This document shows positions 9,164 through 51,900 of a stretch of DNA of 52,280 nucleotides, piece by piece; the first letter of the stretch is position 1; every line of letters starts with the position of its first letter. The stretch covers positions 482,552 through 534,831 of the forward strand of contig WELB01000019.1 in the NCBI GenBank assembly GCA_009602725.1. The letters run 5' to 3'. Source of the DNA: Spirogloea muscicola (taxonomy: Eukaryota > Streptophyta > Zygnematophyceae > Spirogloeales > Spirogloeaceae). Both the position numbers and the translations under genes were made by a program. The notes beneath the pieces are model-generated. The model was given only the letters and a program-made list of their open reading frames with translations, was not told the origin of the DNA and did not search any database.

Positions 9164-9544
9164 AGGGCAGGCGGGAGGAGAGCGCGTTACCGGACAGTGA
9201 ATGGTCAGAGCGGCTAGCAAAGACGGCCAGGTACAGGGCAAGAGAGCATCAATGATGTAGGCCGCCTGCTGCCACGCCGAGCCACTCTGTAGCCGCGGGT
9301 CCTCATCGCTATCTGATGCACGATTGGAAGGCAAATTCCAAGCCCCCGTGCTACCTACCAGCTAGAGCTGGCCAGCTATCCGGTGCTGAGCATGGGCCTG
9401 AAGTCGCTGCAGGCATACAGACACAGGGCCGGCACAAGGACCAAGGAATCGCTGCAGGCTCTCTGTGGAAGCACACGCAGAGAGGAGAGGAGAGATAACA
9501 AAAAATAAAACAAAGAGAGAGATGCTGTTTGCATTCTAATAGGT

Positions 9545-9662
9545 CCCGAGGGAACTTTTTCTGAGCGCTCCCTGGCTGATGTCTTAGTCCTAGTCCTTCG
9601 CACTCCGGCTCCTTCAGACCTTGTCCACTCCTTTGGGCTAGCCTTTCCCAGCCACCAGTAAA
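9545..9662 (+). repeat. GGGCTGGCC hairpin repeat (family C), longer copy
   Basis: The reverse complement reads GTGGCTGGGAAAGGCTAGCC, then GTGGACAAGGTCTGAAGGAG, then GACTAAGACATCAGCCAGGG. It aligns over about 110 bases with 51781-51900, so the family extends well past the hairpin core. Confidence 0.7.
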
Positions 9663-10915: not shown

Positions 10916-11005
10916 AGAGTACGAGAAGGGGGCCAGGGGAAGCGCTAAGAGAAACAAGCACGCAAGGAAACAAAGCAGCTACGAATCACTCGGGGTTTAG
11001 AAGAA

Positions 11006-11117
11006 GAAGGTGCTCGCCCATTGAGAAGAGGGGCTGGCAAAGCCAACCCAAAAAGAATGGACAATGTTCAAAGGCAAAGAAAGAGGTGCTGAAAAAGGAC
11101 TACACTACAAAGTGCAA
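11006..11117 (+). mobile_element. Family B element, near-complete copy
   Basis: Runs from AAGAAGGTGCTCGCCCATTG to GGACTACACTACAAAGTGCA and is almost identical to 39132-39244, with only a few base differences over 110 bases. I see no clear flanking duplication for this copy. It ends about 57 bases before the assembly gap. Confidence 0.75.
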
Positions 11118-11174
11118 GATGGTGCAGAGGGAGATGCAGATGGCTGCTCAGTATCCACGTGTGAGCAACAGCAG

Positions 11175-11693
11175 NNNNNNNNNNNNNNNNNNNNNNNNNN
11201 NNNNNNNNNNNNNNNNNNNNNNNNNNNNNNNNNNNNNNNNNNNNNNNNNNNNNNNNNNNNNNNNNNNNNNNNNNNNNNNNNNNNNNNNNNNNNNNNNNNN
11301 NNNNNNNNNNNNNNNNNNNNNNNNNNNNNNNNNNNNNNNNNNNNNNNNNNNNNNNNNNNNNNNNNNNNNNNNNNNNNNNNNNNNNNNNNNNNNNNNNNNN
11401 NNNNNNNNNNNNNNNNNNNNNNNNNNNNNNNNNNNNNNNNNNNNNNNNNNNNNNNNNNNNNNNNNNNNNNNNNNNNNNNNNNNNNNNNNNNNNNNNNNNN
11501 NNNNNNNNNNNNNNNNNNNNNNNNNNNNNNNNNNNNNNNNNNNNNNNNNNNNNNNNNNNNNNNNNNNNNNNNNNNNNNNNNNNNNNNNNNNNNNNNNNNN
11601 NNNNNNNNNNNNNNNNNNNNNNNNNNNNNNNNNNNNNNNNNNNNNNNNNNNNNNNNNNNNNNNNNNNNNNNNNNNNNNNNNNNNNNNNNNNNN
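11175..11693. other. Assembly gap
   Basis: 519 unknown bases. The left flank is repeat DNA and the right flank is a pure T run, so the gap probably marks a repeat the assembler could not cross. Confidence 0.99.
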
Positions 11694-11815
<122 letters not shown>

Positions 11816-12039
11816 CGCGCCCCGACGAGCGCCTCGCGCCGGGCCTCTCGCCGCCGGCCCTGCCGCTGCGGTGAGCGCGCCGCTGGCCCAGCTCCCCGGC
11901 CTTCCAAGCCGGCGCCACCGCTCCCGCAGGCTCGCGGTGCCCTGCTGCGGCTCACAGGCACACAGCCGCACGCAGAGCTCGGCTCCCGTTGATGGCTACG
12001 GCTGCTCCTTGGCCTCCTGCGCGTGGCATGCCCGTGGCA
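11816..12039. other. GC-rich block, possible first exon of the HMG-CoA lyase gene
   Basis: Bases 11816-11871 are very GC-rich, like the first exons of other genes here, and end at CTGCG|GTGAGC, a good plus-strand donor. The next plus-strand gene, HMG-CoA lyase, lacks a visible targeting exon. The link is inference; the start of any such exon would lie in the T run or gap. Confidence 0.25.
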
Positions 12040-12112
12040 GTGCTTGTACCTCAATTGGATAGAGCACCGAATTACGTATTTGGCGTTGAGGGTCCAAACC
12101 CTTCCAAGCATG
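12040..12112 (+). tRNA. tRNA-Arg(ACG)-like sequence, probably organelle-derived
   Basis: A 73-base cloverleaf can be drawn. The acceptor stem GTGCTTG pairs with CAAGCAT. The D-arm has CAATTGGATAGAGC. The anticodon stem CCGAA/TTTGG encloses TTACGTA (anticodon ACG). The T-stem GAGGG/CCTTC encloses an unusual loop, TCCAAAC, in place of TTCGAAT. The D-stem has one mismatch. It looks like a decayed bacterial-type tRNA, and its neighbour two bases away supports an organellar insert. Confidence 0.55.
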
Positions 12113-12114
12113 TC

Positions 12115-12192
12115 GGGCCCACAATTCATTTGGTTAGAGTACACGCCTGACAAGCGTGAAGTCAGTAGTTCAAACCCACTTCGCCAGGCCCA
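12115..12192 (+). tRNA. tRNA-like sequence with GAC anticodon, decayed
   Basis: Starts GGGCCCA. The D-arm has TTCATTTGGTTAGAGTA, the anticodon stem ACACGC/GCGTG encloses CTGACAA (GAC), and the T-arm has AGTAGTTCAAACCCACT. The 3' acceptor side is shifted by about four extra bases before GGCCCA. Overall it resembles organellar tRNA-Ile(GAU) or tRNA-Val(GAC). A GAC anticodon is not normally used by eukaryotic nuclear tRNAs, which favours organellar origin and loss of function. Confidence 0.45.
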
Positions 12193-27600: not shown

Positions 27601-29576
27601 ATTTATACTGCTGACTGCCCATATGATAACACTCTGTGGCTGCTACTTGACCTAACAGGACCAACTACTTGTACAACCTATTGTTCCTTGAAGGCAGCCA
27701 CAGCTATACCAGGTGATAGATCCTTGCCATGTGGTATGGACTCCCGTCCTCACTCTCGCCCACCTCTGGATCTGCAGCGCTGCCTTGCGAGCACAAGCTT
27801 TGTGAGTCTTGTTACATCTGCGACTCTAAGAGATACGTCACTTCCAACATGTCAGCAGTTATCGACTCTTTGCGACCCTTGGCAAGGCAGACTCATGTTG
27901 CTGCAGTGAGATGTCCACCAGTCCACCAGTCGTCACTTCGACAGATTGATTATGCAGAGATTTACTCGCTATACAGTGTCTTATATTGTGTATATATAGC
28001 TCAGCATGAGGTTTTCAATCTGACTATGAATGATTGGATCATGGGTTAACCTGCTAAGAGCCACTCGTAGTTGACCATAAGGTCTTATATATACACCCTC
28101 CAGCTTCATGTGTATGTCGCTACTACTGATGTATTTTCCAGTCGTCACTTCGACAGATTGATTATGCAGAGATTTACTCGCTATACAGTGTCTTATATTG
28201 TGTATATATAGCTCAGCATGAGGTTTTCAATCTGACTATGAATGTTTGGATCATGGGTTAACCTGCTAAGAGCCACTCGTAGTTGACCATAAGGTCTTAT
28301 ATATACACCCTCCAGCTTCATGTGTATGTCGCTACTACTGATGTATTTTCCATCTCGAAGTACCAACTCTCCCTGCAAGTGAAAGTGGGGCTTTAAGGGT
28401 TTGTGATACATGCTTTTCAAGCATCCAACACTCCATGCCAGTGCTTAAGTGCCAAGAAAGCAATGCCAACTAATGCCTGCAAGCATTTAGGCAGGTGTCA
28501 ACAAGATGAAAGAAAGAAAGCTAGCAAAAGCTTGGGTCTACTATACCCTAAACATGTATTCCAACCGTAATCTGATGGAGAAGCTACTTACGTGCACATA
28601 GTGAACCTCTGGCTTGGTAGTCATTGCACTGCTGAGATGGAACACTATGCTGCCAGTGTCCTTGCGAAGCCCTCGCAAACGGACACTGTCATTGAATCTG
28701 CTTACGTGCCAACTCCCTGTTGCATAAATCACGGGCATGTATCTTAGCATTGGCAGAGGCTTGTGAAGGAAACAATTTGCTGTGTGTTAGCAGACTGGCC
28801 TTGCTACCTCCTGCAACTTCACTTCACTACAAGTTGCCGTCTGCTTCCGAACACGCTGGCAGAAAGAAGGAAGAACAACTGTCTCCTTTGAAGCGGCAAA
28901 CCCTGGCGTCCTCAGACAACCAAGCGACTGCACCACTTAGGCACATTGAGCAGCATACCTCTGTACGTGCCAGAGACATTGGCAGGGAAGCGTGCTGCCA
29001 ATGCCAACCCGTCTGCGTGGTCGGACGTCGGTCCGGATATTAATGCCTGCTTCGACAAACGCATTAGCACGATATAAGGTATAGCCCTAATTCTTGAGTG
29101 CCGACTCCCGGCAAAATTGATCAGGAGCTGGAGGCTAGGAGCAGCTAATGGGCTGTTAGCGAAGCTCCAAAGAGTGCTCTGCAGCAATCAACGTCCCTAC
29201 TGTAGTCCCCGGCACTGGGTCGAGCCAACCAGCGGAAGCATGTGCGAGTATCGGCCGCTGCCCTGCCAGCACTGCTGGATACAGCTGAGACGGGGCCATC
29301 CACTGGCCCATAGCATCTGGGACAGCGGCGACGGGCCTACACCTGCGCTACTTGCTGGCTCAAGCCGGACTCGGCAAGCTGAGGGCTTTGGTGGATGCTG
29401 ACTTCGTCGGCCCACGGCGGCTGCTGCGGCTCCTCGAGAGGCGCGCCGGGCCGCTTCAGCGGCCGCGCGAGTGCGCCCGAGAGGGCCAGCGAGAGCAGCA
29501 GCGCCAAGCGGAGGCCGCCACCGCCGCTGCCGCCCCCGCAGCGCCGGGGCGAGCGGCGAGGCCAGCCAGAGCGCAT
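24636..29576 (-). CDS. FLYING SAUCER/Tul1-like transmembrane RING E3 ubiquitin ligase
   Basis: Multi-pass endomembrane E3 ligase, homologous to plant FLY1/FLY2 and yeast Tul1. ATG at 29576 opens a signal peptide (LRLALLLSLALSGALA). Phased exons are 29576-29343, 29046-28959, 28716-28592, 28372-28263 and 27779-27710. Later ones are 26831-26681, 26540-26481, 26319-26226, 25933-25766, 25552-25224, 25040-24912 and 24737-24636 (TAG). Exons between 27700 and 26850 are not resolved. Family blocks are VSGTYRG, LEGVYIRPYGQLR, NKAVNYTLMVTFVS, FLIRQMEHSNTQS, FFKFVIFSIFEMRYLLAIWK and HYFGSRCFVPRQ. The RING-H2 domain has CVICMAPVD, then TPCDHFFHTGC and CPTCRRPLPPM at the very end. Plant members tune pectin methylesterification through Golgi/endosomal ubiquitination; that role is inferred here. 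Exon 28372-28263 lies in a recent tandem duplication. Confidence 0.92.
27929..28352 (+). repeat. 212-base tandem duplication including part of an E3-ligase exon
   Basis: Copy 1 is 27929-28140 and copy 2 is 28141-28352. I find one difference (AATGATTGG against AATGTTTGG). Copy 2 holds most of the exon encoding the KLEGVYIRPYGQLR block with its donor. Copy 1 repeats that exon segment but lacks the exon's first ~20 bases and its acceptor. Confidence 0.93.
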
Positions 29577-38213: not shown

Positions 38214-38807
38214 CGCCGTGGATTGCAGGGCTTCTTGCTTCTTGCCTCGTGCAGGGCTTCTTGCCCTCCGCCTATCACGTGCTTCTACTTTCTCCCCTCC
38301 CTTCCTGCTGTACCCTTTCTTTGCTGCTTGGCATACCACTGCATACAGTTGGTACAGTGAAAGCAAATGCCTTGCCAAAGGCGACCCCAACAGTATGCAC
38401 CAAATTACTTCAGAGCAGGCGGCTGTGGCGGTCTTGGGCAGGCCCGTGCTGTGGTGCCGCTTCTCTCGACTCTTGACATTGTCAATCGAAGCCTAGTCAA
38501 GGTTGAGCTCCTCTTTCCATTGAAGATGATTGATAAGCAAGGTGTCTTGGCCCAAAGGCAGCCCGTGGAGGCAGAGGACACAGACAGCTGGGGAGATGCG
38601 AATGCTGTAGGAATCGTGCAATTGGGATCTAGCTACATGTGCACGAGACAGGACTTGTGGCTCAGGGACGCCCTCTTGTACATCTCTTGCCTGCCTGCAG
38701 CTTTTGGCCCTGCTTCTATCCATCACTCAATAAATACATCACACACTCCACACTTCTCTCCCACTCTCTCTAAGAAGACCGCGTATATAGGAAGAGATGT
38801 AGGCCAA
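38214..38807. other. 3' region of the CGR1 gene, no further gene seen
   Basis: Likely 3' UTR and intergenic DNA. Short frames only. Confidence 0.5.
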
Positions 38808-39292
38808 ATGGCCAGGTACGACGGCAAGCACATCTAAAGATCTACATAATTTACAGCAGATTGACCCGCTCAATAACCACGGGTCAAGACATAAAGGTCA
38901 CTACTCGATGCATGAATACTAGATGCCAGGAACGGAGCCCTTCGGCCACCTACTAGAGCTCGCCCAGCTTTCTGGTGCAAGGCACTAGCCTGAGCACGCT
39001 GCAAACAGGCCGAATTTCGTCGTCGCAAGAGCGACAGATATGAAGCTGGCAAGCCCATGTCAGCCGGAAACACATCTGCACGTCGACTGTAGCCTAGATT
39101 GGCAATGTTTTGAAGCAGAGTGTGGAAGCGAAAGAAGGTGCTCGCCCATTGAGAAGAGGGGCTGGCAAAGCCAACCCAAAAAGAATGGACAATGTTCAAA
39201 GCCAAAGAAAGAGGTGCTGAAAGAGGACTACACTACAAAGTGCAGGAAGCGAGGACCCAGACAGCCAAAGATGTCGATTGCAGCTGGCACGA
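38808..39292 (-). mobile_element. LTRGY repeat (family A), copy 1, interrupted by a family B element
   Basis: Shares about 320 bases with 47571-47945 and 50291-50620. On the minus strand a frame ending at 38870 encodes RFHTLLQNIANLGYSRRADV, FPADMGLPASYLSLLRRR, ACLQRAQASALHQKAGRAL and finally SSSDLYVLTRGY-stop. A 113-base family B element is inserted at 39132-39244; beyond it the family A sequence resumes (GAAGCGAGGACCC) and matches copy 2. Confidence 0.8.
39132..39244 (+). mobile_element. Family B element with 8-base target-site duplication
   Basis: A 113-base insertion flanked by GGAAGCGA on both sides (39124-39131 and 39245-39252). The empty site is visible in the related repeat at about 47888 (TGTGGAAACGAGGACC). 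The element contains a hairpin (GGGGCTGGC/GCCAACCC) and ends GGACTACACTACAAAGTGCA. It is too small to code for a transposase and has no clear terminal inverted repeats. Confidence 0.85.
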
Positions 39293-39699
39293 GTTGATCG
39301 CATTGGGGGTAATCGGAGTAATGCCGCAGTTTCCTTTTGTTCTGCTCCGCCCACTGCGTGCCATACGGCGCCCGAGCTCTGGCCACACCCGGCGGGCCCC
39401 CCCCCACCCGTCTTCGTAAACCCCGGAAACCCGGGAGCTCGCGCTGCGTCCGGGGCCGACGCCATCCCCGCCGCCGCCGCCCCCGTCGCCTGCGCTGCCG
39501 GGAGCTGGCGCTGGAGCAGACCTCGCCCTCGTGTTGGCCATGGCGAGCCTGCTCCCCGCCTAGCGGCCCAGCGGCCTAGTGGAGGCCTCGGCTCCGGCGC
39601 CGGCGCTGGCCAGCCGGCGCCGGCGCTGCCAGCGCCGCGGGNGCCAGGCCAAGCCCCGCGCTCGCTGTGATGACCACCCAGAAGTCGGGCTTGGCGAGC

Positions 39700-40863
39700 A
39701 GCGGCGACGCCGCGACCGTGGGGAACTCATCGAATACAAATACGGCAAGGACAAGGCCGAAAGGAAGCCCCTCCGCCCCAAGTCCTCCAGACGTCCCCCA
39801 CCCCATGTCCTCGTGCGCCAACCTGCCCACCTTCCTTGAACCCCCTTCCCTGCACCTCCTCTCTGGGGTCTGCACGTAGGCAACCATACTGACAAGGTGG
39901 GGCCGATGTCTCAGCCTGGCCCCCTGCCTTGCCGACCCACCGCTTGGTCTCAACAAGCCCCTGTGCCTTTGCTCTTTGGGGAGCTCCGCCTTCCGCGCGT
40001 TGCCACCTTACCTGCCCTCTCCCCTCCTGCAGCTCATGCCCACTCACTCCTCCGCCCGGCCTCGTCTCTCCAAGGACACGGCGGAGTAGTGCTTACAGCA
40101 GGGCTTTTGAGGACTCGCCAAAATGGCAGGCGCCCGTGTCAAGCCAGCTCCTCATTGAGTGTTGACCCTGGGTTCACGCAAGTGCGCAGGATGAGCTGGG
40201 TGATGTCCTCCACTGGATGCGCCAGGCGTTTGGCCTCGTCTGCGGCGTCGCATGGGGCGCCATCCCCCTCCATGGTGGTGCCTGGTTCTTTGTGTAAGCA
40301 CTTACCACTTCCTCAGATCCCCCTGCACATCCACCTTACACCCAGAACACCGCAGATCTTCATACCTGGACAGTAACTTCTTAAGCACATTCGATGGACG
40401 ATTAATCAGCCACCATATTAGAACCAGTGCCTTACTGGCCGCTCTCCATTGCGGGCTCATGACCTGCAAATGTTGTTGCCACTAATTTAGGCAGAGCCCT
40501 ACCGTGGCTGCAGGTACGTTCTTCTGAGCATGGCCCTGGTGTTCTCCTACTACAAGTACTATCTTCGGGTGGACGAGGAGGAATTTGGTGGCCATGCGGC
40601 GCTGCTGCAGGAGGGCCTAGTCGCCGCTGTTGGCCTCTTCATGGTCAGCCTGCGGGTGTCGCCCCAAGCCGGCAGCTCACTCTAAGTTCCTGCCTGCATC
40701 AACTGACAAACTTGCTTGCTGTGCACCTCGACATTGTAGCATTGCGCAGAATTTGCATCCTTGACTGGGTCATGACGTGGACACGGCTGACTCCCTTCTT
40801 GTATTGCTCTTGCATGTGCAGCTTCTCTGGGTGCTCATATACAGCTGCTTGCACGCTCCCTAG
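39700..40863 (+). CDS. Rab5IF/EMC6-family membrane protein (plant Rab5-interacting type)
   Basis: Small ER-type membrane protein of the EMC6/Rab5IF family; human Rab5IF helps membrane-protein biogenesis and respirasome assembly. Three exons are secure and in phase: 40190-40293, 40514-40643 and 40822-40863 (TAG). They encode DELGDVLHWMRQAFGLVCGV, AWGAIPLHGGAWFFV, then YVLLSMALVFSYYKYY, the signature LRVDEEEFGGHAALLQEGL, and a final LLWVLIYSCLHAP. Three hydrophobic segments are visible. DEEEFGGHxALLQEGL is nearly identical to land-plant members. The first exon is uncertain; ELIEYKYGKDKAE near 39720-39765 is a candidate N-terminal part, but its splice to 40190 is not resolved and an unknown base lies at 39642. 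Confidence 0.85.
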
Positions 40864-41600
40864 AAGGTGGAGCAGGGCTTTTGCCTCTTTAGCACTAACG
40901 CCTTGGTGGTCAAGGACTCCCACCTGTCAGATGCTTATACATCTGCCATTGTCCAGCCTTAGCTTTAGCTTTCCCGCACTTCTCATTACTGAAAGTCACG
41001 TCGATCAATCCCTAGATTCTACACTAGACCTGTACCTCCAGTGGTGCACCTCTCAAGAGCAGTGGCCTGGCTAATGCACATGGCGGTGATGCCTTGTTGC
41101 GAGGTACATGAGTTCACCAGGTGAAGTAAGTATTTCCTTTGCAAGATGGCAAGAGATCTCAAGCACAAAGTTCATGCACAAACTGCAGCAGTGGTCAGGT
41201 CAGGAAGCCTTGGACTATTTGCTGGCCTCACAGAACAGCAACAACATCGTCGTCAGCAGTAAAAGTAAAGGTCCGCTGTCTATGGACCGACAAAGGTATT
41301 TTTGGGATTTGCAGGCGGACCTTTCAAGGCAGGTAATTCTTACAGCTGTGATGCTAAAGGCCGCGTACAATTAGGCTTTCTTCAGCCAGGGTAGATAAGA
41401 TGGTTTGCTCTCACAATTGTTTAACAGCCTATCAAGCTCATGCATGCTAAGGCTAGTTAGGAACATGTACATTGGGCTGCGCATAGCGCTAACGTTCCTT
41501 TCGGCATCTGCCACAATAGTGAAGGAAGCTCAAGCCATGCTTCGTGGTTCGAAGTAGGCAAATAGGGTGTACAGTAAAGGGAACGGGTATATATACAAGA
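40864..41600. other. Convergent intergenic region
   Basis: Between the Rab5IF-type gene (+) and G6PDH (-). A plus-strand frame at 41108-41374 (88 codons) starts with ATG but matches no family and has no visible splice links; I take it as chance or UTR. Confidence 0.5.
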
Positions 41601-44600
41601 CTAGCCCTCAGCCTCACCCATGTCGCCCCAGCGTACATTGTGCTTTGCAGCCAGATAGTGGGATCCAATTGGCCCGCGGGAACCATGAGGGTACAACTCG
41701 GGGGCCACCTTATTGCCTTCTAGCTCCTTCAGGAGAGGGGTGAAAATCCTCCAGGCTGCACGCCCAAGTAGGCTGTCAGTGTGGAGCAAGTAGGACGAGT
41801 ATCTGAAACGAAAGGACTGTCAGGACAAGTGACAGAACGATACTTAAGGTCTCCTTATCACAATGCTCAAAGGTAAGTAAGTCTGAGAAGACAGTCAAAC
41901 CTACTCTGACTGCTCAGAGATAAGTCAAGATGTTTTGCGCAGACTATTGCAACATTGACATAAGGATGTAAGTCATACGCAGTGACAGACAGACTCAAGC
42001 TGACAGCTGCTCACCAATGTCAAGCTCATCTGAACGAATGAAGAGTCGTTTGTCGCCTTCAATGGAGTCCAAGATCAATCGCTCGTAAGAATCTGGAATC
42101 TGACCTTTGTACCTGCGCCACAAGCCACGCCAACATCGTCTCACTTTGAAGTGAGACTGACCTAAGCTGTTCTTTAGTTTCTTCTTTATATAACACTAGA
42201 GACTTGATTTATGATACATCTTGGAGACCTTTGCCCCCATTAGCTTAGCCTATCAACACTACCGACTTGATCTACCGACTTGGTTTAATCTCACAATAAA
42301 AGATCTATCCAACTAGATCTGTTTTTGTATTCATACTCATCCCAATCCTACATGGTAAAGAAAGGTAGGTAAGACAAATAGAGCACCAAGAGTTGCAGGC
42401 TTCTTGAAGCAAGTACTGGCAGAGTCATATGTGACGAACCTGTCAGCATAGTGAAGGTTTAGATTGGAGCGATCCAACCGCATCCCTATGCCAGGGATCT
42501 TGTTATTGATCTTGATGTAGATAGCCTCATTTGGTTGGAGACGAATTACAAGCTCATTGGTTGCAAGGTCCAGATCCGTGCCAAAGCTCCTCTTGTACAA
42601 GTTTCCTGGAACATGCCGGAACTGGACTCTAATTTCGGCCCTGCAACATGCAGATATAAGCACGTGCTGGAGTCATAACACTTGCAAGTCCAAGTCCTAC
42701 CGGTTCGCAATATATTCTGTCAATACTACCAGCTCAGACCAGCTCAGACGACAATGATTCTGCTACTTGCAATCAAGGGCACGAATGAGCTCCTTGAGCA
42801 ACAGGCTGTGTCTCTTAGCTGGTAGAAGTCAGCTCATGATACAGGATGCAACAATCGTCCGGGCAAACAGAAGAGCAAGAAGGTCATCTTCATGTGCTTA
42901 CTGTCTCTTATGAAGCGCCTTTCCGGCCTTCATCAGGAAGGGCACTCCATCCCACCGTGCATTATCTATCCAAAGTGCAGCGGCTGCAAAGGTGGGTGTG
43001 ATTGAGTTGTTGGGAACAGTTTTGTCATCTGTGTAGCCCTGATACTTCACACCCCCCCTTGAGTTAGCCTTATACTGGCCAATGACGACGTCTTCCAACT
43101 GCAGCTGCCTCATTGACTTCAGAACCTTGACCTGGCAAAATAGCGAGTCTGTGGAGTGAGATTGGACTCAGTGTTTGCTTTGCCATGGCATATTGCCACT
43201 ATTTGATGAAATATGGTCGGCACAAAGCATAGGAGCAGTCACCAACCAGAGGGCTCTTATGCAACGACTCTACCTCATCCCCTCATGTACAGTGATGAAC
43301 AATTTGTGCAGGTCTGCAAGAGCCATACTGCTAGTCTTGACATGTTTGTATATCCAAGCGGATGTGCATTTTCCAAGACCAACTAAATCACAGAGCAGTT
43401 CAGGTGCTTACTTTTTCATTGATGATGTCCTCTGCTGCTAAGGAGACAGGGGGCTCCATAGCAAAGAGAGCCAAGATCTGAAGAAGATGGTTTTGCATGA
43501 TATCACGAATGATGCCATAGTTATCAAAATAGCTGCAGGAGGAGTGGGGAAACTGTCATTCATAAGCCTTTGTCATGCAGACAAGGAACAGCGGCATTCA
43601 ATGTTATGTTCGAGAGGTCCTGCCAATGTTACTAGCTGCTTGTGTTACCCACTATTGAAGCTATGCTGTCAAATCCGCATGCTTCTCATGTATAAGCACT
43701 GGTACTGTCATGAGCCTGCTGTTATGCCGAGATATAGGTTTTAACAAGGTAGATATTTCTGACATTTTTGCGCTAAAGTTGTCAAACGTCAGCTCAATGA
43801 CGTACCCTCCTCTGCCCTCTGTGCCGAAATCTTCAGAGAATGTGATCTGAACGTTCCTGATATATTGTCGGCACCAGAGGGGCTCAAAGACAAGGTTCGA
43901 GAAGCGCAGGACTGACAGATTCTCAACCAGCTCCTTGCCCAGGTAGTGGTCGATTCTGGACAATTCAGCATCATGGTTCGTCAAGACAGATGGCACATTG
44001 CCCCTCATGATGCAGATATCTGCATGCATTTGATGTGAGTACTAGAAAGCCTCAGCTTCGCATGGCGCAGCAATACTATGCACTCGCCTGTAGGTGTCTT
44101 CCTCGGAGAAGTACTTTGCTAATCCTCGTGTTAAATCTGCTGATGACTCGGTGTCGCGACCGAACGGTTTCTCCACAATGATACGAGTCCACCCCTTTGA
44201 GGCCTTTGCCCCTTTACTTGCCGACTTGGCAACGTCAACAAAGACATTTGGAGGGATGGACAGATAGAAGAGGCGATTGGCGACCTTCCCTTCCTGTGAG
44301 GCAAGCTGGGCTCGTCAGATCAATGCGAGACAGATTGCAGGTTTGCAGCAATGACTTCCACTAAAAAATCCTCCGGATCAATTATGCAATGTCAACTGAG
44401 ACATTTCCTGTTCGTCTGCTTCGAATTTCGAAAACGTGCAAATTCTTACAAAGCCGCCAAGGTTGCGTCCATATTTTCACCTCCTGCTCCTTCAGCTTGA
44501 CGTCCAAGCCCTTGAAGCCGTCTTCATCATCATACATCCCAGAATGGTAGAAGCAACGGTTTAGGAACTCTGCCTGCTTGTCTCCACACTTCTCTCTGCA

Positions 44601-45905
44601 GGATAAAGTGCTTGCAGATTACTATGGCCGCATTCTTTCCTCAAAATTCCAGAGTACGTCCATACTGGCTGAAGCTCGCTAGTAAATTTCCGAGGAGCAA
44701 GCCTGACACCCTAGCCTTACGTGTCCCCAGCATTTGCAGCAACAGGAGGCTGCAGCACATTATTCAACCCTTGCAGCTTACCCTGCATCAATCCTGCACG
44801 TCAACTTCTCGCTAATCATGTCACGCAGCTCCTCATTAGTCATCTTGCTTCTGGCATAGCCAAAAATTGTAAAGTGCTGCAGTGTAATAAACTTGTTGAT
44901 ATTGGTACCGCATTTCACACAATGGCGGCTGCGAAGCTGCTAACTGAAGCTAACGTCAGATCACCGCAACAGATATCGACTGTGCCGCAGCTGGCTCGTC
45001 GTCTCTGAGGCTTCAATCTCAGAGTTAGAGCAAATTCCTCTGCTGTCTACCTTAGGGTGCTGTTATTGAAACTCAGCCAATCAGCGAAGTTGATGACAAT
45101 GCCAATTGAACTTGAAGCAGAAGGCTTAGGGCAAGTGACGTGGTCATAACACTGGAACATTGAGACAAACCTTCGGAAGGTACTCCTCGTAGTATAGGGC
45201 GAAAAGAGCAGGGAAGATCTTCTTCTTAGCCAAGTCTCCAGAAGCCCCCACAACAGTGATGCTCACAGCCGTGGCAGATCCCACATTGCTGGAGGAGGTG
45301 CCAAAGGACTTGGGCACTTCAGGCTCCGTCGATGGCTTCTGGTTCCCTGTGTCGTTTGCTGGAGGAGCCTTTGTCGCAACGTTGGACTTGGTATCTGCAG
45401 GTGATCCAGAGCTGCATTTCAGAACCCTGACAACGAGCACATTAGGTTTCTTGACAGCTTTGATTTTACAGAGCTGAGGTGCAGCTAAGATGCAGTAGTA
45501 ACAGCCTGATGCCCCTGCTGACGTTCCAGAGCTTGCATCGCCGATCAGATGATCGATCATGTGCTTACGCATCCAAAGACAACTCCATGGGATGTCAAAC
45601 CCAAGGATGCTCTTCCATAGCGGCTGGCGCCCTTCCCTACCTTCAGTGGTGGCAGGAGCCTCGGCCCGAGTGCTCCCGTTAAGACCGGCTTTGGGGCCGC
45701 GTCTCGGGCTCGCCACATGACCGGCAAAGTGCGCCCCGGCCGTCCAGACGGCGCGCCTCCGCAGGCCGCGGAAGTCGTCGGCGGCGACCCCGCAGAGCAG
45801 TGGGCAGGTCGAGGACGACGCCACGCGCATTGGCGACGACGGCGGCGGCGCGTGTGCATGTTGCGACAGCGGCGTGGCCGGCGGGGCACGCAGGGCAGCT
45901 GCCAT
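41601..45905 (-). CDS. G6PD: Glucose-6-phosphate 1-dehydrogenase, plastidic (EC 1.1.1.49)
   Basis: First enzyme of the oxidative pentose phosphate pathway, making NADPH in the plastid. Eleven phased exons: 45905-45641, 45457-45171, 44876-44782, 44595-44481, 44293-44088, 43955-43806, 43532-43412, 43131-42902, 42640-42440, 42112-42015 and 41755-41601, 640 residues. An Ala/Pro/Ser-rich transit peptide precedes the NADP fold [16 protein letters not shown]. Then come [15 protein letters not shown], the active-site [44 protein letters not shown] and AWRIFTPLL. Two cysteines nine residues apart (TCRIDAGEKCG) match the thioredoxin-regulated pair of plastidic P1/P2 isoforms, so inhibition by reduction in the light is inferred. 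The fifth intron uses a GC donor (ACAG|GCGAGT). ATG 45905 was chosen as the first in frame before the transit peptide. Confidence 0.96.
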
Positions 45906-46380
45906 GGCGCTCGTGGCGATGGCGAGGCGGCCGAGACTTGTCGGGTCAGTTGGCGCGTCCAGAAGAGAACACTGGTTGTAGAAGGCCAATTTGTAAAAGG
46001 GGGGCAGCTCAAGTGGGTGCCAGCGATCCACCGTCCCGGCTGGCCTTCTACAGCCACCGCCTCATCGACAGAGAGCCTTTCCTTGCTTCAGAAGGGCGAG
46101 CTGCGGTTAGGAGTGGCGGTAGAAGGGCGAAATAGCGGCGCCCGCCCCGTCTCTTCGTGACCCGTCCCCCGCGGAGGGCCCCCGTGGGGGCCTCGGCCCG
46201 CCAATGGGCGGCGGCCCCGTAGGGGCCGCGCTCGTCAAGGGGCCTCCTGCCGACCTCGTCGCCGCGTCCCGCTGGGCCGCCTCATTGCAGGCCATCGGCC
46301 ACCCGCCGCCGCCACCAACATGCACACCTCTAAGCTGAAGTTGGCAAAGCCCGGACCCGATGCTCTTCAACATAAATCAA
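45906..46380. other. GC-rich G6PDH promoter region
   Basis: Very GC-rich at 46130-46310 with repeated GGGCC/GGCCC words. It fits a CpG-rich promoter, or a first exon of an unseen plus-strand gene; no exon can be supported. Confidence 0.4.
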
Positions 46381-46820
46381 AGAACTACTCTCTTCCAAGT
46401 CATTCCCTTGGGTTGTGGACCTCGCCCAACTCTTATGGGCTGGCCTTTTCCAGTTCTCGCCCGCTTCGGAAGACCCACTTTCCTTTGGGCTGGCCTCTTA
46501 CATCCTTCGTGGTACTTGCATGGCGGTGTACTATGCCCTTACCGGCCTTTCTGGAGCTTGTACATCACTTCTGGCTGGCTGTTACAGCCCTCGCTGCCTT
46601 TGGAAGAGCTTACTTCAGTGTGTCGCCTTTGCTATGAAGAAGAAGAGCTGATTTCTTCTTTTGGACGGCCTTTCACAGCTATTGCCACCTTCTGTGCGCT
46701 GTGCTTCTGTGCGCTGTGCTTCTGTGCTCCTGTGCTCACTTGTGGTTACGGAAGTCAACATTCAGCTCTGCTTTCACCCTGTTAACTCGGCCACCCTTAG
46801 CCTAGAGCTTCACTTTTGTT
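46381..46820. repeat. Tandem degenerate GGGCTGGCC repeats (family C)
   Basis: At least three decayed copies follow one another: ATGGGCTGGCCTTTTCCAG near 46435, TTTGGGCTGGCCTCTTACAT near 46486 and TTCTGGCTGGCTGTTACAGC near 46568. Each is preceded by a CCCACTTT or CATCACTT-like word. Confidence 0.55.
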
Positions 46821-46989
46821 AGCCCCACTCCATGTGTTTTTGCATTTTTGCGATTTTACGTTTTTGCCTGAACGGACATTTGGCTCGGCCTCGCCTTCCT
46901 TTTCACTTCATGCACACCACGCGCCTTTCGTTTTGATGATATTGCCACATAGTTTACTCGTTGAGGCTCTTGGGAAAGTGGCGATGGCT

Positions 46990-47066
46990 GAACTCGGCTA
47001 ATCCATGCAATGATGTGTTGCTTTCCGATTAAGACTTGGTTCGAATCCAATCTTAGTTTAATTCTA
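46990..47066 (+). other. tRNA-like T-arm upstream of the rRNA fragment
   Basis: TTGGTTCGAATCCAA forms a T-stem and canonical TTCGAAT loop, followed by CTTAGTT, which can pair with AACTCGG at 46990 in six of seven positions. No believable anticodon stem is visible, so this is at best a decayed organellar tRNA that sat next to the SSU rRNA gene. Confidence 0.3.
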
Positions 47067-47072
47067 AAAAGA

Positions 47073-47420
47073 AGAGTTTGATCCTGGCTCAGAATGGACG
47101 CTAGCGATATGCTTAACACATGCAAGTCGAACGCTGTTCTGATCAAAACAGCAGAACAGAGTGGCGAACGGGTGCGTAACACGTCGGAATCTGCCGAACA
47201 GCTCGGGGAAATCCTGAATACAAAAAGTGAAAAACAGCGCTGTTTGATGAGCCCGCGAAGTATTAAGGTAGTTGATTAGGTAAAGGCTGACCAAGACGAT
47301 GATGCTTTGCTGGTCTATTCGGATGATCAGCCACACTAGAACTGAGACACGGCCTAGATTCCTACGGGAGGCAGCAGTGGGGAATCTTGGACAATGGGCG
47401 CAAGCCTGATCCAGCAGTAT
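47073..47420 (+). rRNA. Mitochondrial SSU rRNA 5' fragment (nuclear mitochondrial insertion)
   Basis: Starts with the universal SSU 5' end AGAGTTTGATCCTGGCTCAG, then GCTTAACACATGCAAGTCGAACG-type sequence. GAATCTGCCGAACAG, AGCGCTGTTTGATGAGCC, GGTAAAGGCTGACCAAGACG, GATCAGCCACACT and GGGAATCTTGGACAATGGGC follow. These match plant-type mitochondrial 18S rRNA more closely than plastid 16S. The likeness fades at about 47420, so only the first ~350 bases are present. A standalone nuclear rRNA function is excluded; it is an inserted fragment, unless the contig is chimeric. Confidence 0.88.
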
Positions 47421-47570
47421 AGGACAAGGGCAAAGGGGCCGGACAAGCGCGCGCTACTCATCAGAGTGGTACTACGGATGGCCACCCAATAAGCAGTAGT
47501 GAAAGCCGCGAGTCGGAATGACCAGCAGCTGGGAAGGAAAACTTTCGTATATTTACAACAAACGAAGGCC

Positions 47571-47945
47571 AAAATGGCCAAGTACAAAGGCAAACACATC
47601 TGATGACGTACATCACCCACAGCAGATTGACCCGCTGAGTGACTACGGGTCAATACATAAAGGTCGCTAACCGATGCCTGGATTCTAGATGGCAGATTCG
47701 AAGCCTTTCTCCCACCAATCAGAGCTCACTCAGCTTTCTGGTGCAAAGCATTAGCCTGAGCACGCTGCAAACAGGCCGAAACTCGTCGTCGCAAGAACGA
47801 CAAGTATGCAGCTGGCAAGCCCATATCAGCCGGAAACACATCTGCACGTCGTGCACAACCTAGATCGGCAATCTTCCGAAGGCGAGTGTGGAAACGAGGA
47901 CCTAAATGGCCAAAGGTATCGACTGCAGCCGGAAAGGAGTCACCC
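47571..47945 (-). mobile_element. LTRGY repeat (family A), copy 2, with a nonsense change
   Basis: Same ~320-base unit as copy 1, without the family B insertion. The minus-strand frame encodes ADVFPADMGLPAAYLSFLRR and ACLQRAQANALHQKA, then stops at TGA (stop at 47726) where copies 1 and 3 read an arginine codon CGA. It begins about 150 bases after the mitochondrial rRNA fragment. Confidence 0.8.
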
Positions 47946-50290
47946 TGCTTATCACCTGAGGCGGCAGCCACGGCTAGTTGCTAGCTGTGGTGCTACTATG
48001 GCGCTCAACTTCACGGCTGCTGAACTAGCACCCAAACTGTACAATGCAAGATGCAAGAGCAGCCTGGTCGCAGCCTGGTCTCCATAGCTCGTCCACTTAT
48101 TCTCGTGTTAGGAGAGTAACACGACGGCATCATGAAGTCGATTCCGATAGGCCAACTATTGATGATGTGATTAATGCTTGTCAGCTTCATTGAGATACAG
48201 CCTGTACATCGGCTGCGCTCAGCAACGTCCATGCCAGATCAAGCATGTAGTCAGTAAGGTACAGATGACTGTAAGTCCAAGGAACTTTCCTAGGAATGAA
48301 CTTGATGTCATCGAGGGGCCTAGATGGTAGTAATCAATTGGTAGGGTTTGACAGACACCGTTGTGCAGATACCAGGGTGAACCGGGCGTGACAAACGATC
48401 CCATGAAGGTACTTTGTTCTAATATGTATTCAGAGATCGTCGTCGACTGGGGTTGACTACCTCCACTTGAACATCCTGCGGACTACAAACTGCCATTTAA
48501 CTGCATATGCATTGACTAGTGATGTGTCAGATGAACCAATGGCATCATCACATAGCAACCATGACCTTAGAAGACCTTCTATTTTGTTCGTCGTTCGTCA
48601 ATGAGTGTATGTATTGGTGTAGGACATAGGAACACGTGCTTGATTGGAAGCAAGAGCTTCTCCCTGCAAAGCGCTATACCTTACAGCCTCTACAACTCAT
48701 CTGTCAGCAATATGCTGGACCTGCAACGACCGTGAGCAGATCTACTTGCCTCCTTCCTAGCTGCTCTTGCTCATATGTGCACACCATCTAGCATAAGCTC
48801 ATGCTGAAAGAAAGTGGGCTAACGATGAGAGGCAGCCTTTGTGAGGAGCCAGCTTGAGATTATTGGACACAAGTCGAGCAAGATCCGCCAGCGAGACAGT
48901 ACATCCATTCGAGAGTTCCAGTAGCTGACATAGTAGATTCAGTAGCTCTCGTCAATGCCGCAAGTTGGACACACTGGCAGTAGGGCAGGAGGCGCACTGC
49001 CATAAGCGCAATGATGCACGCCTAGCGTGGAGCTGTGAAGCAAACGCCTGAGTTGCTGCAGCCAGACGGAGAGAGGCATGCGGTAGGGCGAGAGAGCTCG
49101 GAACACGACGTCAAGCTGCTCGCTTCGTTCTGTGTTTGTCGCCTTGCCTTGTTGCAGTGTATCAGCCGCAGTCCATGGTGTAGCTGACTTATCACAACTA
49201 GAAAGGCACCAGATACATACATGTTGTGTGTACATTTAGCATCCTCGCCAGTCAAAACATGACACGATTGTCACCGTCATCTTATGTTGGACAGAAGGAG
49301 CCTTTGAATATGTATCTCATAAGTCATGATCAGGAGTATAGATGTTAAAAGATATATATCTCTCTAGACCTTCTTTCTCTCTTCTCCCTCTTCAATGCCA
49401 TGATCAAAGGACGTTCGAGTCCGATCAGTGTAAGCAAAGGGAGATCATCTAGAAGGCTGCATGGCTAGCCACCATGGCATCCTGGCACCATGAAGAAGAA
49501 AGGTCAACTCTGTGCTCTTGCTGTTCATCTGTTGATCAATAGATCTAATATTACCAAAGTGTTATACAATTGGCTGCCAGTCGGTTCAATCGACTTTCCC
49601 CATGCCATGACGCTTGCACTTATCCACGCAAGGGCTCCTTGTTAAACAACTTCACGGCTAAGTTAGCTGTAGGACAACCGAGGAGCCTAACACGATGAGT
49701 GATATACACTCTTCAAGCGCCAGCGGCAGCCACGATACCCTGGACGACTGTGTGTGGAGCAAAAGATTCGGAGCATAGAGAACGATCAATCAGCCCGATG
49801 GAAGAAGCACCCAACTCAAAGAACACCGACGAGCCTTTTCATTGTGAGTAGTGTTTAAATCTGCAAGCGCCAGCAATAGCCGTGCGCTCATCGCCTGGAT
49901 GGAGTTGTTAAGGTGGAGCACGAGCGAGAGAAACCAAAGCATACAGTACGATCGACCAGCCCGGTGGCAGTAGCGTCCAACGCAAGTAGCAGATGACAAC
50001 ACGCATGTCTCGACAAGTACAGGTGTGTGGGCTAAGTTCGGGCAACGCAGCTTACGCTTGACCTCCTCTCTGCGAGCTGGTGGCAACTGACCTGAAGAGT
50101 AGCTAATTCAAAGATGTCGAGGGCTGCCAGCCTAGAGCCTGAGGCTACATTGCAGGCGGGCGGAGGGGTTGGGCCCGACATAACGGGGCGAAAAATGTGT
50201 TTCAACTCTCCCTTTCATTTCATGCGTCCCGCGCGCCTTCTCTCTCTTCAAGGGGGAAAACGTATGTTAAGAGATGGGGAGGCCATGTTT
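47946..50290. other. Gene-poor region
   Basis: No coding exon, RNA gene or known repeat recognised at 47946-49690. At 49693-50010 two diverged ~150-base units lie in tandem (see the separate entry). The rest shows only short frames. Confidence 0.5.
49693..50010 (+). repeat. Diverged ~150-base tandem repeat
   Basis: CAAGCGCCAGCGGCAGCC at about 49714 recurs as CAAGCGCCAGCAATAGCC at about 49862. GATCAATCAGCCCGATGG at 49784 recurs as GATCGACCAGCCCGGTGG at 49950. The spacing between anchors differs (148 and 166), so indels separate the copies. Confidence 0.65.
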
Positions 50291-50620
50291 GGTCAAGTAA
50301 AAAGGCAAGCACATTGACAAATGTACGTCACCTGCTGCTTAGCTGACCCGCTCAGTAACCACGAGTCAGCACATAGAGGTCGCTAACTGATGCTCGAATA
50401 CCGGACGGCAATCGACAAGCTCTTGAACTACCAGCCAAGGCTCGACCAGCTTTCTGATGCAACGCATGAGCCTGAGCTCGCTGCAGACAAGCTGACACTC
50501 GACGTCGCAAAACTGACACAGAGGCTGCCGGCATACCCATCTGGGCTGGAAGCATATCCTCGCGTCGTGCATATCCCAGACTCGCTATGTTCTCAAGTAG
50601 GGTATGGAAGCGAAACGGGG
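50291..50620 (-). mobile_element. LTRGY repeat (family A), copy 3, open frame
   Basis: Shares the family A unit. The minus-strand frame ending at 50352 is open through RFHTLLENIASLGYARREDM, LPAQMGMPAASVSVLRRR, ACLQRAQAHALHQKAGRAL and RASVSDLYVLTRGY-stop. It continues open upstream to 50858 through another repeat, but that part is not shared with copies 1 and 2. Confidence 0.8.
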
Positions 50621-50796
50621 TGGCCGTGGGGCGGCCGGTGCGTGGTGGGAGAGAGCTCGATGCGCAAGACGGCGAGCGGTGCGCGTGAAACGAAAGGATG
50701 GCCAATCGAAGTTCATCAATTGTTCGGGCAAGCGGGCGGCATAGTGGGGCTATGAAGCGAAGCCCTGGGCTTGGAGAAAGGTGCGCGGTGCGCATG

Positions 50797-50915
50797 AAAG
50801 AGAGAGAAGGCGAGCGGGGCGCACGCAATGAAATGGAGGCCAATGCAAGCCGATACATTGTTCAGGCAGAATGTAGGGCAAATTGAACAGGGCTACATAA
50901 TATAGAGACCGAAAC
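50797..50915 (+). repeat. GAAATGGAGGC repeat (family D), copy 1
   Basis: Shares with 51433-51540 the words GAGAGAAGGCG(A/C)GCGGGGCGCA, AATGAAATGGAGGC, ACATTGTTCAGGCAG, TAGGGCAAA and GGGCTACATAATA. Shorter relatives lie at 50640-50790 and, inverted, near 50213. Confidence 0.75.
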
Positions 50916-51139
50916 TAAGGTGCCTAAGGTGACATCAGTACCCATGAAAGGATACGGCTGCTGAAAGGAGAGAGGCGAGGAGGGGCTAAGTAGGGCGGTA
51001 GAAGGGCTTCGTGGCCACTTGAGTCAGTGTGTGTTTTAATGTTTTCGTGGCCCCTTCCTGGCCCCTTCCTGGCCCCGTGGATGCTAGGCTTCCATCTGCG
51101 GTCGTGTCGTGTCTAGCTGTGTAGTTGCTGAATTCGGCA

Positions 51140-51200
51140 CGTTTTGGCTCTTTGGACCTTGTCCATTCTCCATGGGCTGGCCTTTCCCAGCCCCTAACTA
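51140..51200 (+). repeat. GGGCTGGCC hairpin repeat (family C)
   Basis: Contains TTTGGACCTTGTCCATTCTC then ATGGGCTGGCCTTTCCCAGC; GGGCTGG and CCAGCCC form a perfect short hairpin. Confidence 0.7.
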
Positions 51201-51279
51201 CCCTTTGTGGGCGAGCAACCCTTTCGAGCTTTCGTGGCCCCTTCGACCTTTGTTCATTCATTTTCTATTGTAGAAGGGC

Positions 51280-51330
51280 TTAGTACCCGCGCGTGAGCAA
51301 GTACAAGTCGGACAGGCTGACTTGGAGAGC
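51280..51330 (-). mobile_element. LTRGY repeat (family A), copy 4, short diverged fragment
   Basis: The minus strand encodes LSDLYLLTRGY-stop. Almost every codon differs from copies 1 and 3 at a synonymous position (for example GGG for GGT, TAC for TAT, TAA for TGA), so this is a much older relative with the same protein end. Confidence 0.55.
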
Positions 51331-51780: not shown

Positions 51781-51900
51781 CTGGGAGAGGCCAGCCCAAG
51801 GGAATGGACAAGGTCTGAAGGAGCCGGAGTGCTAAGGACTAGCATCTCCGACCTGCGGCTGCTTAGCTAAGGACTAAGACATCAGCAAGGGGACTTTCAG
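51781..51900 (-). repeat. GGGCTGGCC repeat (family C), longer copy hosting a family B insertion
   Basis: GAGGCCAGCCCAAGGGAATG, GACAAGGTCTGAAGGAGCCG and GACTAAGACATCAGCAAGGG match the reverse complement of 9545-9662. TAAGGACT occurs twice (51833-51840 and 51868-51875) around 27 bases absent from the 9545 copy. Confidence 0.7.

Follow-up and report, generated by a model that had tools for sequence, protein, structure and literature searches.

A recurrent C-terminal peptide in the Spirogloea muscicola genome as the probable end of an R2-group LINE protein

A short peptide with the ending SDLxxLTRGY recurs in a 52,280-nt stretch of the genome of the alga Spirogloea muscicola (GenBank assembly GCA_009602725.1, contig WELB01000019.1, positions 482,552 to 534,831, forward strand; hereafter the window). 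We conclude, with a probability of roughly 95%, that this recurrent C-terminus closes the only protein encoded by a group of long interspersed elements (LINEs) that bear a restriction-like endonuclease (RLE) and belong to the R2 group. The class of element is already known; what is unusual is an RLE-only LINE in an alga of the green lineage, and a conserved 10-residue tail common to families whose open reading frames (ORFs) are just 42–43% identical to that of family I (defined below). A repeated peptide that lacked an explanation now has its place in a defined LINE group, abundant in the genome and apparently active in recent times. The initial annotation of the window had guessed at the end of a transposon or retroelement protein, and the retroelement guess is borne out by the finding that the tail closes ORFs with a reverse transcriptase (RT) and a predicted R2-type endonuclease fold.

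The complete protein was found elsewhere in the genome (153 Mb in 471 contigs were searched; the window is contig C19, 482552–534831). Upstream extension, which the initial annotation had proposed, gave in other genomic copies a longer protein and then full-length open elements. A 250-residue query of the extended protein had at least 150 genomic matches (150 of 14,813 first-look candidates being scored), several of them within open frames of 1,267 residues. The frame of locus L039 (1267 residues) ends in SDLYVLTRGY and that of L040 (1350 residues) in SDLYVVTRGY; searches with their own C-termini reached two further families, represented by L062 (1418 residues) and L063 (1316 residues). These four ORFs align from the zinc finger through the last residue, with identities to the L039 ORF of 77% for L040, 42% for L062 and 43% for L063. 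The L039 element is ∼3,970 bp long and has a single ORF, of 1,255 residues from the first in-frame ATG, and a 3′ untranslated region (UTR) of ∼99 nt. In four full-length copies the starts lie within ∼17 bases of each other and are 99.3–100% identical there, which points to recent activity. These four copies are L039, L064, L066 and L068, on contigs C2, C89, C151 and C255.

The order of parts in the protein is an N-terminal zinc finger, the RT, a CCHC knuckle, the RLE and the tail. A profile search for RT, as had been suggested, finds the Pfam family RVT_1 above its cut-off in all four ORFs (E values of 1e-18, 1.1e-16, 2.5e-13 and 2.3e-15), and the best PDB profile matches of the RT are R2 proteins, above LINE-1 ORF2 (the references being PDB sequences only). 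Similarly, the RLE motifs D-x14-D ... Kx2[KH]Y and H[DN] are present in all four ORFs, and the first match of the predicted endonuclease fold is the R2 RLE, at modest model confidence. The C-terminal part alone, as a sequence profile against the PDB, gave no matches, the window C-termini alone gave no Pfam family above cut-off, and an AlphaFold2 model of the 972-residue region from RT to tail was discarded, with a predicted local distance difference test score (pLDDT) of 44. The zinc-finger cysteines and histidine are aligned in all four ORFs, in a proline-rich region before the RT, although Pfam zf-C2HC_2 is reported in only one of the four (E 4e-4, under its cut-off). The R2 proteins of Platysternon, Taeniopygia and Bombyx (PDB 9nl2, 9nl3, 9dou, 8ibw and 8gh6) have the same single-ORF order of zinc finger, RT, CCHC and RLE, and are the best match here for both the RT profile and the endonuclease fold. 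Unlike R2, which inserts at one 28S site, the present family has insertions in many sequences (40 insertions sit in differing sequences, with no single 28S ribosomal DNA target), and no Myb family is found by Pfam in the four ORFs. The knuckle, present in all four, also differs, with a spacing of CxCx11-12HxxxC compared to the published R2-group spacing of CX2-3CX7-8HX4C (PMC5678591; this and the papers cited below are represented by excerpts).

In the window, a degenerate pattern for DL[YC]xLTRGY followed by a stop, allowing up to 3 mismatches, has four matches, all on the minus strand, whereas 100 shuffles averaged 0.02 matches and never gave more than 1. Three matches are free of mismatches (38870–38899, 50352–50381 and 51280–51309); that at 47636–47665 has 3, because copy 2 reads LTRSHS and its stop codon is lost. 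Thus, the four minus-strand copies described initially do exist, but the common end does not extend to copy 2, which is without the final RGY-stop; similarly, the in-frame TGA reported in copy 2 is present, but the loss of its stop, past which reading runs on, had been missed. Copies 1 and 3 are open, as had been stated, copy 1 over 120 residues to the stop at 38870 and copy 3 in its C-terminus to the stop at 50352. The copy at 51280 is indeed changed at third positions with its residues kept, in that 9 of 10 codons (stop included) differ from copy 1 and the sole residue change, V to L, is conservative. This fourth copy is not, however, a diverged sister of the other three but consists of the final 22 codons from a second LINE family. 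On sequence comparison, copies 1–3 belong to one family (family I, with two subfamilies, A and B) and copy 4 to another. The list of four was also incomplete, since further remnants exist in the window, for example an older copy at 9225–9424. The LINE features of the window are as follows.

9225–9424, minus strand: older family I (B-like) C-terminal remnant, 67% identical to L039
9694–9831, minus strand: family III-like C-terminal remnant, 66% to L062 4054–4199
10998–11174, minus strand: family III 3′UTR remnant, the repeat as in the copy 1 insert, 72% to L062 4231–4401 (repeats D3/D5)
38776–39362, minus strand: copy 1, 5′-truncated family I subfamily A LINE with endonuclease part, tail, stop (at 38870) and 3′UTR
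39131–39244, minus strand: insert nested within copy 1 and derived from a family II/III LINE 3′ end (hairpin-like GGCTGG..CCAGCC, GGGCGAGC end)
46828–46938, plus strand: family IV 3′UTR remnant, 66% to L063 3980–4092
47547–47940, minus strand: copy 2, decayed family I (A) 3′ end with in-frame TGA and LTRSHS, 82% to L040
50208–50254, plus strand: family IV 3′UTR remnant, 85% to L063 4049–4093
50262–50613, minus strand: copy 3, 5′-truncated family I subfamily B 3′ end, open to the stop at 50352, 92% to L039
50784–50944, minus strand: family IV 3′ end with the final codons and the UTR (repeat D4), 82% to L063 3942–4100
51280–51349, minus strand: copy 4, the 22 C-terminal codons of a family IV LINE (..VSLSDLYLLTRGY-stop), 80% to L063 3882–3951
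51430–51612, minus strand: second, decayed family IV 3′ end, 73% to L063 3898–4089
51643–51774, minus strand: family III 3′UTR remnant, 72% to L062 4289–4416

Copy 1 is 94% identical to L040 in two blocks (39362–39236 and 39131–38776), and its C-terminal ORF spans 38870–39232, upstream of which the nested insert interrupts the frame. The insert is recognized from 78.8% identity of 39125–39236 to the L062 3′UTR and from repeat D5 (39132–39247), which is 97% identical to 11004–11119. Copy 3 has 87% protein identity to L039 over 86 residues, and copy 4 matches L063 by tblastn over 22 residues (73%), with the same tail in L042 and L047. The families have distinct 3′ ends: subfamilies A (L040) and B (L039) share one near ATACACG, with a short pyrimidine run after it in many copies, while families II and III share a different one, GGCTGG..CCAGCC plus GGGCGAGC, which is the window repeat D3/D5, and the family IV 3′UTR is the window repeat D4. 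RNAalifold gives a GGCCA/TGGCC stem and others in the 3′UTR, with two-sided changes at 0 of 15 pairs in 8 sequences; the hairpin is therefore without covariation support.

The C-terminus recurs because the copies are 5′-truncated. In 59 loci, 127 distinct copies reach the family 3′ end without being cut at the locus edge, and the length of ORF that they hold ranges from none, that is UTR only (34 copies), through 1–60 nt (10), 61–150 nt (26), 151–300 nt (16) and 301–749 nt (11) to at least 750 nt (30), the last class being enriched because many loci were picked with the 250-residue query. We compared the two flanks of 40 family I insertions, window copy 1 included, after 12 alignments that were ≤90% identical or edge-cut had been dropped. 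The longest word common to both flanks has a mean length of 6.8 nt, compared to 4.9 nt in shuffled pairs (a value matched in 0 of 1000 shuffles), and words of 7–13 nt are common to the flanks of 19 of the 40 insertions (shuffled mean 4.1, maximum 10). Truncation together with common flank words is what target-primed reverse transcription (TPRT) with early stops would be expected to leave, and the nested insert in copy 1, with the 7-bp word GGAAGCG on both sides (39124–39130 and 39245–39251), represents one such early-stop event. Among 17 of the 19 insertions with at least 7 nt shared (L023 and L026 were omitted as low-complexity), the common word begins with CC in 11 and is preceded by C in 12; since microhomology blurs the word edges, this site bias is a preference and not a motif. 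Self-targeting into LINE 3′ ends was considered and rejected, as a LINE match starts within 25 nt of the 3′ junction in 13 of 41 insertions and the background windows, drawn from these loci, give 66 of 247, with no clear enrichment. As to a link with telomeres, three TTTAGGG units lie directly 5′ of a truncated family I piece at L005:1479–1499; beyond this locus, no exact TTTAGGG array of at least three units was found among the loci examined.

The abundance of very short copies could have another source. If many of the shortest pieces, which consist of the UTR only or of the UTR plus ∼15 codons (as in the copy 1 insert), were elements like short interspersed elements (SINEs) with a borrowed LINE 3′ end, the large class of UTR-only ends and the 10 with ≤60 nt of ORF would be accounted for. 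We consider this unlikely: the 5′ break points fall at many different positions, with a few values recurring, and a cmscan of the window at gathering thresholds gave no RNA-gene match at these pieces. In the favoured reading, early-stopped TPRT would proceed as follows. The protein may bind the 3′UTR of its own RNA, and the RLE may nick pyrimidine-rich DNA, often directly 5′ of CC(T), with the nick priming reverse transcription. Synthesis would often halt within a few hundred bases, leaving many copies with the 3′UTR and the last codons only, and resident copies would afterwards decay neutrally.

Less probable still is that the elements belong to the Dualen/RandI type, with both an apurinic/apyrimidinic endonuclease (APE) and an RLE, or to the L1/Zepp type, with an APE. 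Both types are known from green algae: L1 (Zepp-like) and Dualen LINEs are reported in relatives of Chlamydomonas, and Zepp and ZeppL (L1) are LINEs of Coccomyxa and Chlamydomonas (PMC8226300); Dualen/RandI of Chlamydomonas is, like the present family, a green-algal LINE with an RLE (PMC4640811, PMC8226300, PMC3636483). However, Dualen carries an APE in addition, as L1 LINEs carry an APE (PMC3636483), and no Pfam APE family is found at E ≤ 1 in any of the four full ORFs. The ∼3,970-bp element with one 1,255-residue ORF, in which a proline-rich stretch bearing a zinc finger precedes the RT, likewise argues against both types, as do the PDB profile scores, which prefer R2 over LINE-1 ORF2. Finally, in the copies listed the family I 3′ ends lack a trailing poly-A run.

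Selection was estimated as the ratio of nonsynonymous to synonymous substitution rates (dN/dS) by the Nei-Gojobori method. The ratio is 0.107 over 972 codons between subfamilies A and B, and 0.111 between window copies 1 and 3. It is 0.53 for copy 1 and 0.52 for copy 3 against their nearest full-length relatives (L040 and L039, respectively), and ∼0.90 among 30 close family I copies, a value from summed pairs, which are hence not independent. Comparisons between families I, III and IV approach saturation at synonymous sites, and a rough dN/dS of 0.22–0.33 comes from long alignments in the four of five pairs in which it is defined. The value of 0.107 between subfamilies and ∼0.90 among copies indicates that the lineages have been selected, while the resident copies largely have not. 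The initial claim of a coding element that was translated while spreading thus holds between lineages but not for the resident copies, and the dN/dS near 1 that was named as evidence against it is seen among young copies and not between lineages. This pattern is what a LINE predicts, the constraint being the history of the active lineage. By contrast, the reading of the copies as a host protein domain or exon, each under selection, draws on three of the four window copies being open to the same stop, and is refuted by the near-neutral divergence of the 30 copies, by their scattered positions with common flank words and by the presence of the peptide at the close of RT-bearing ORFs.

The tail, AGRAL..(∼17 variable residues)..SDLxxLTRGY, lies past the endonuclease fold and is poorly predicted in the structural model (pLDDT <50). 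In families I, III and IV, 7 of the last 10 residues are identical, compared to 1 of the 17 that precede them; of the 10-residue windows from position 291 onward, 7.4% are as well conserved as the last 10 residues. A scan of the collected loci finds this ending in families I–IV. The conservation of the tail in amino acids and not in nucleotides makes a function in the protein probable, perhaps a contact with RNA, with DNA or between domains. The conserved tail past the endonuclease is a further feature set against R2, in a comparison that is not residue by residue.

HERO elements come from animals. Among the RLE LINE groups (CRE, R2, R4, NeSL and HERO), most are target-specific, while HERO and some others are not (PMC4640811, PMC3636483). 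BLAG and HERO are, like the present family, RLE LINEs without one specific target (PMC3636483, PMC7650587), but the BLAG hosts are a cockroach and a tardigrade, unlike the present alga (PMC7650587). The green-algal LINEs mentioned in PMC8226300 are L1/Zepp-like and Dualen, and a limited literature search over titles and abstract openings, with Repbase outside it, found no report of an RLE-only LINE in green algae. It is conceivable, although we hold this only tentatively, that the green lineage has its own deep lineage of RLE-only LINEs with dispersed insertion and a tail, common to its several families, that is absent from known R2-group proteins and needed for retrotransposition. If so, such elements would stand between the R2-group LINEs of animals and Dualen, the dual-endonuclease LINE of algae, and so close a gap; provided that the gap in the literature is real, the family is informative about the replacement of the two LINE endonucleases by one another. 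The loose target choice also offers a natural comparison for site-specific R2. Two scans confirmed no relatives in viral contigs.

Several other features were noted. A bacterial-type small-subunit ribosomal RNA fragment (47074–47459, plus strand; Rfam RF00177 positions 9–546) lies ∼90 bp from the 3′ end of LINE copy 2 and is probably a piece of organelle ribosomal RNA in a nuclear contig. An N run followed by a long poly-T (∼11170–11820), right beside LINE 3′ ends, is probably an assembly gap. The window also contains, within 12040–12180 (plus strand), a tRNA-Arg (ACG) with a second tRNA-like match close behind at 12123–12180, a 212-bp exact tandem duplication at 27926–28349, and a dispersed repeat present as a 62-nt inverted pair (9590–9651 and 51781–51842; 92% complementary, 42 kb apart). 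The window carries a YCF48 photosystem II assembly gene, and the RuBisCO small subunit, which as a nuclear gene is indicative of the green lineage, is found at four places in the genome, each time divided into two parts as an intron would leave it.
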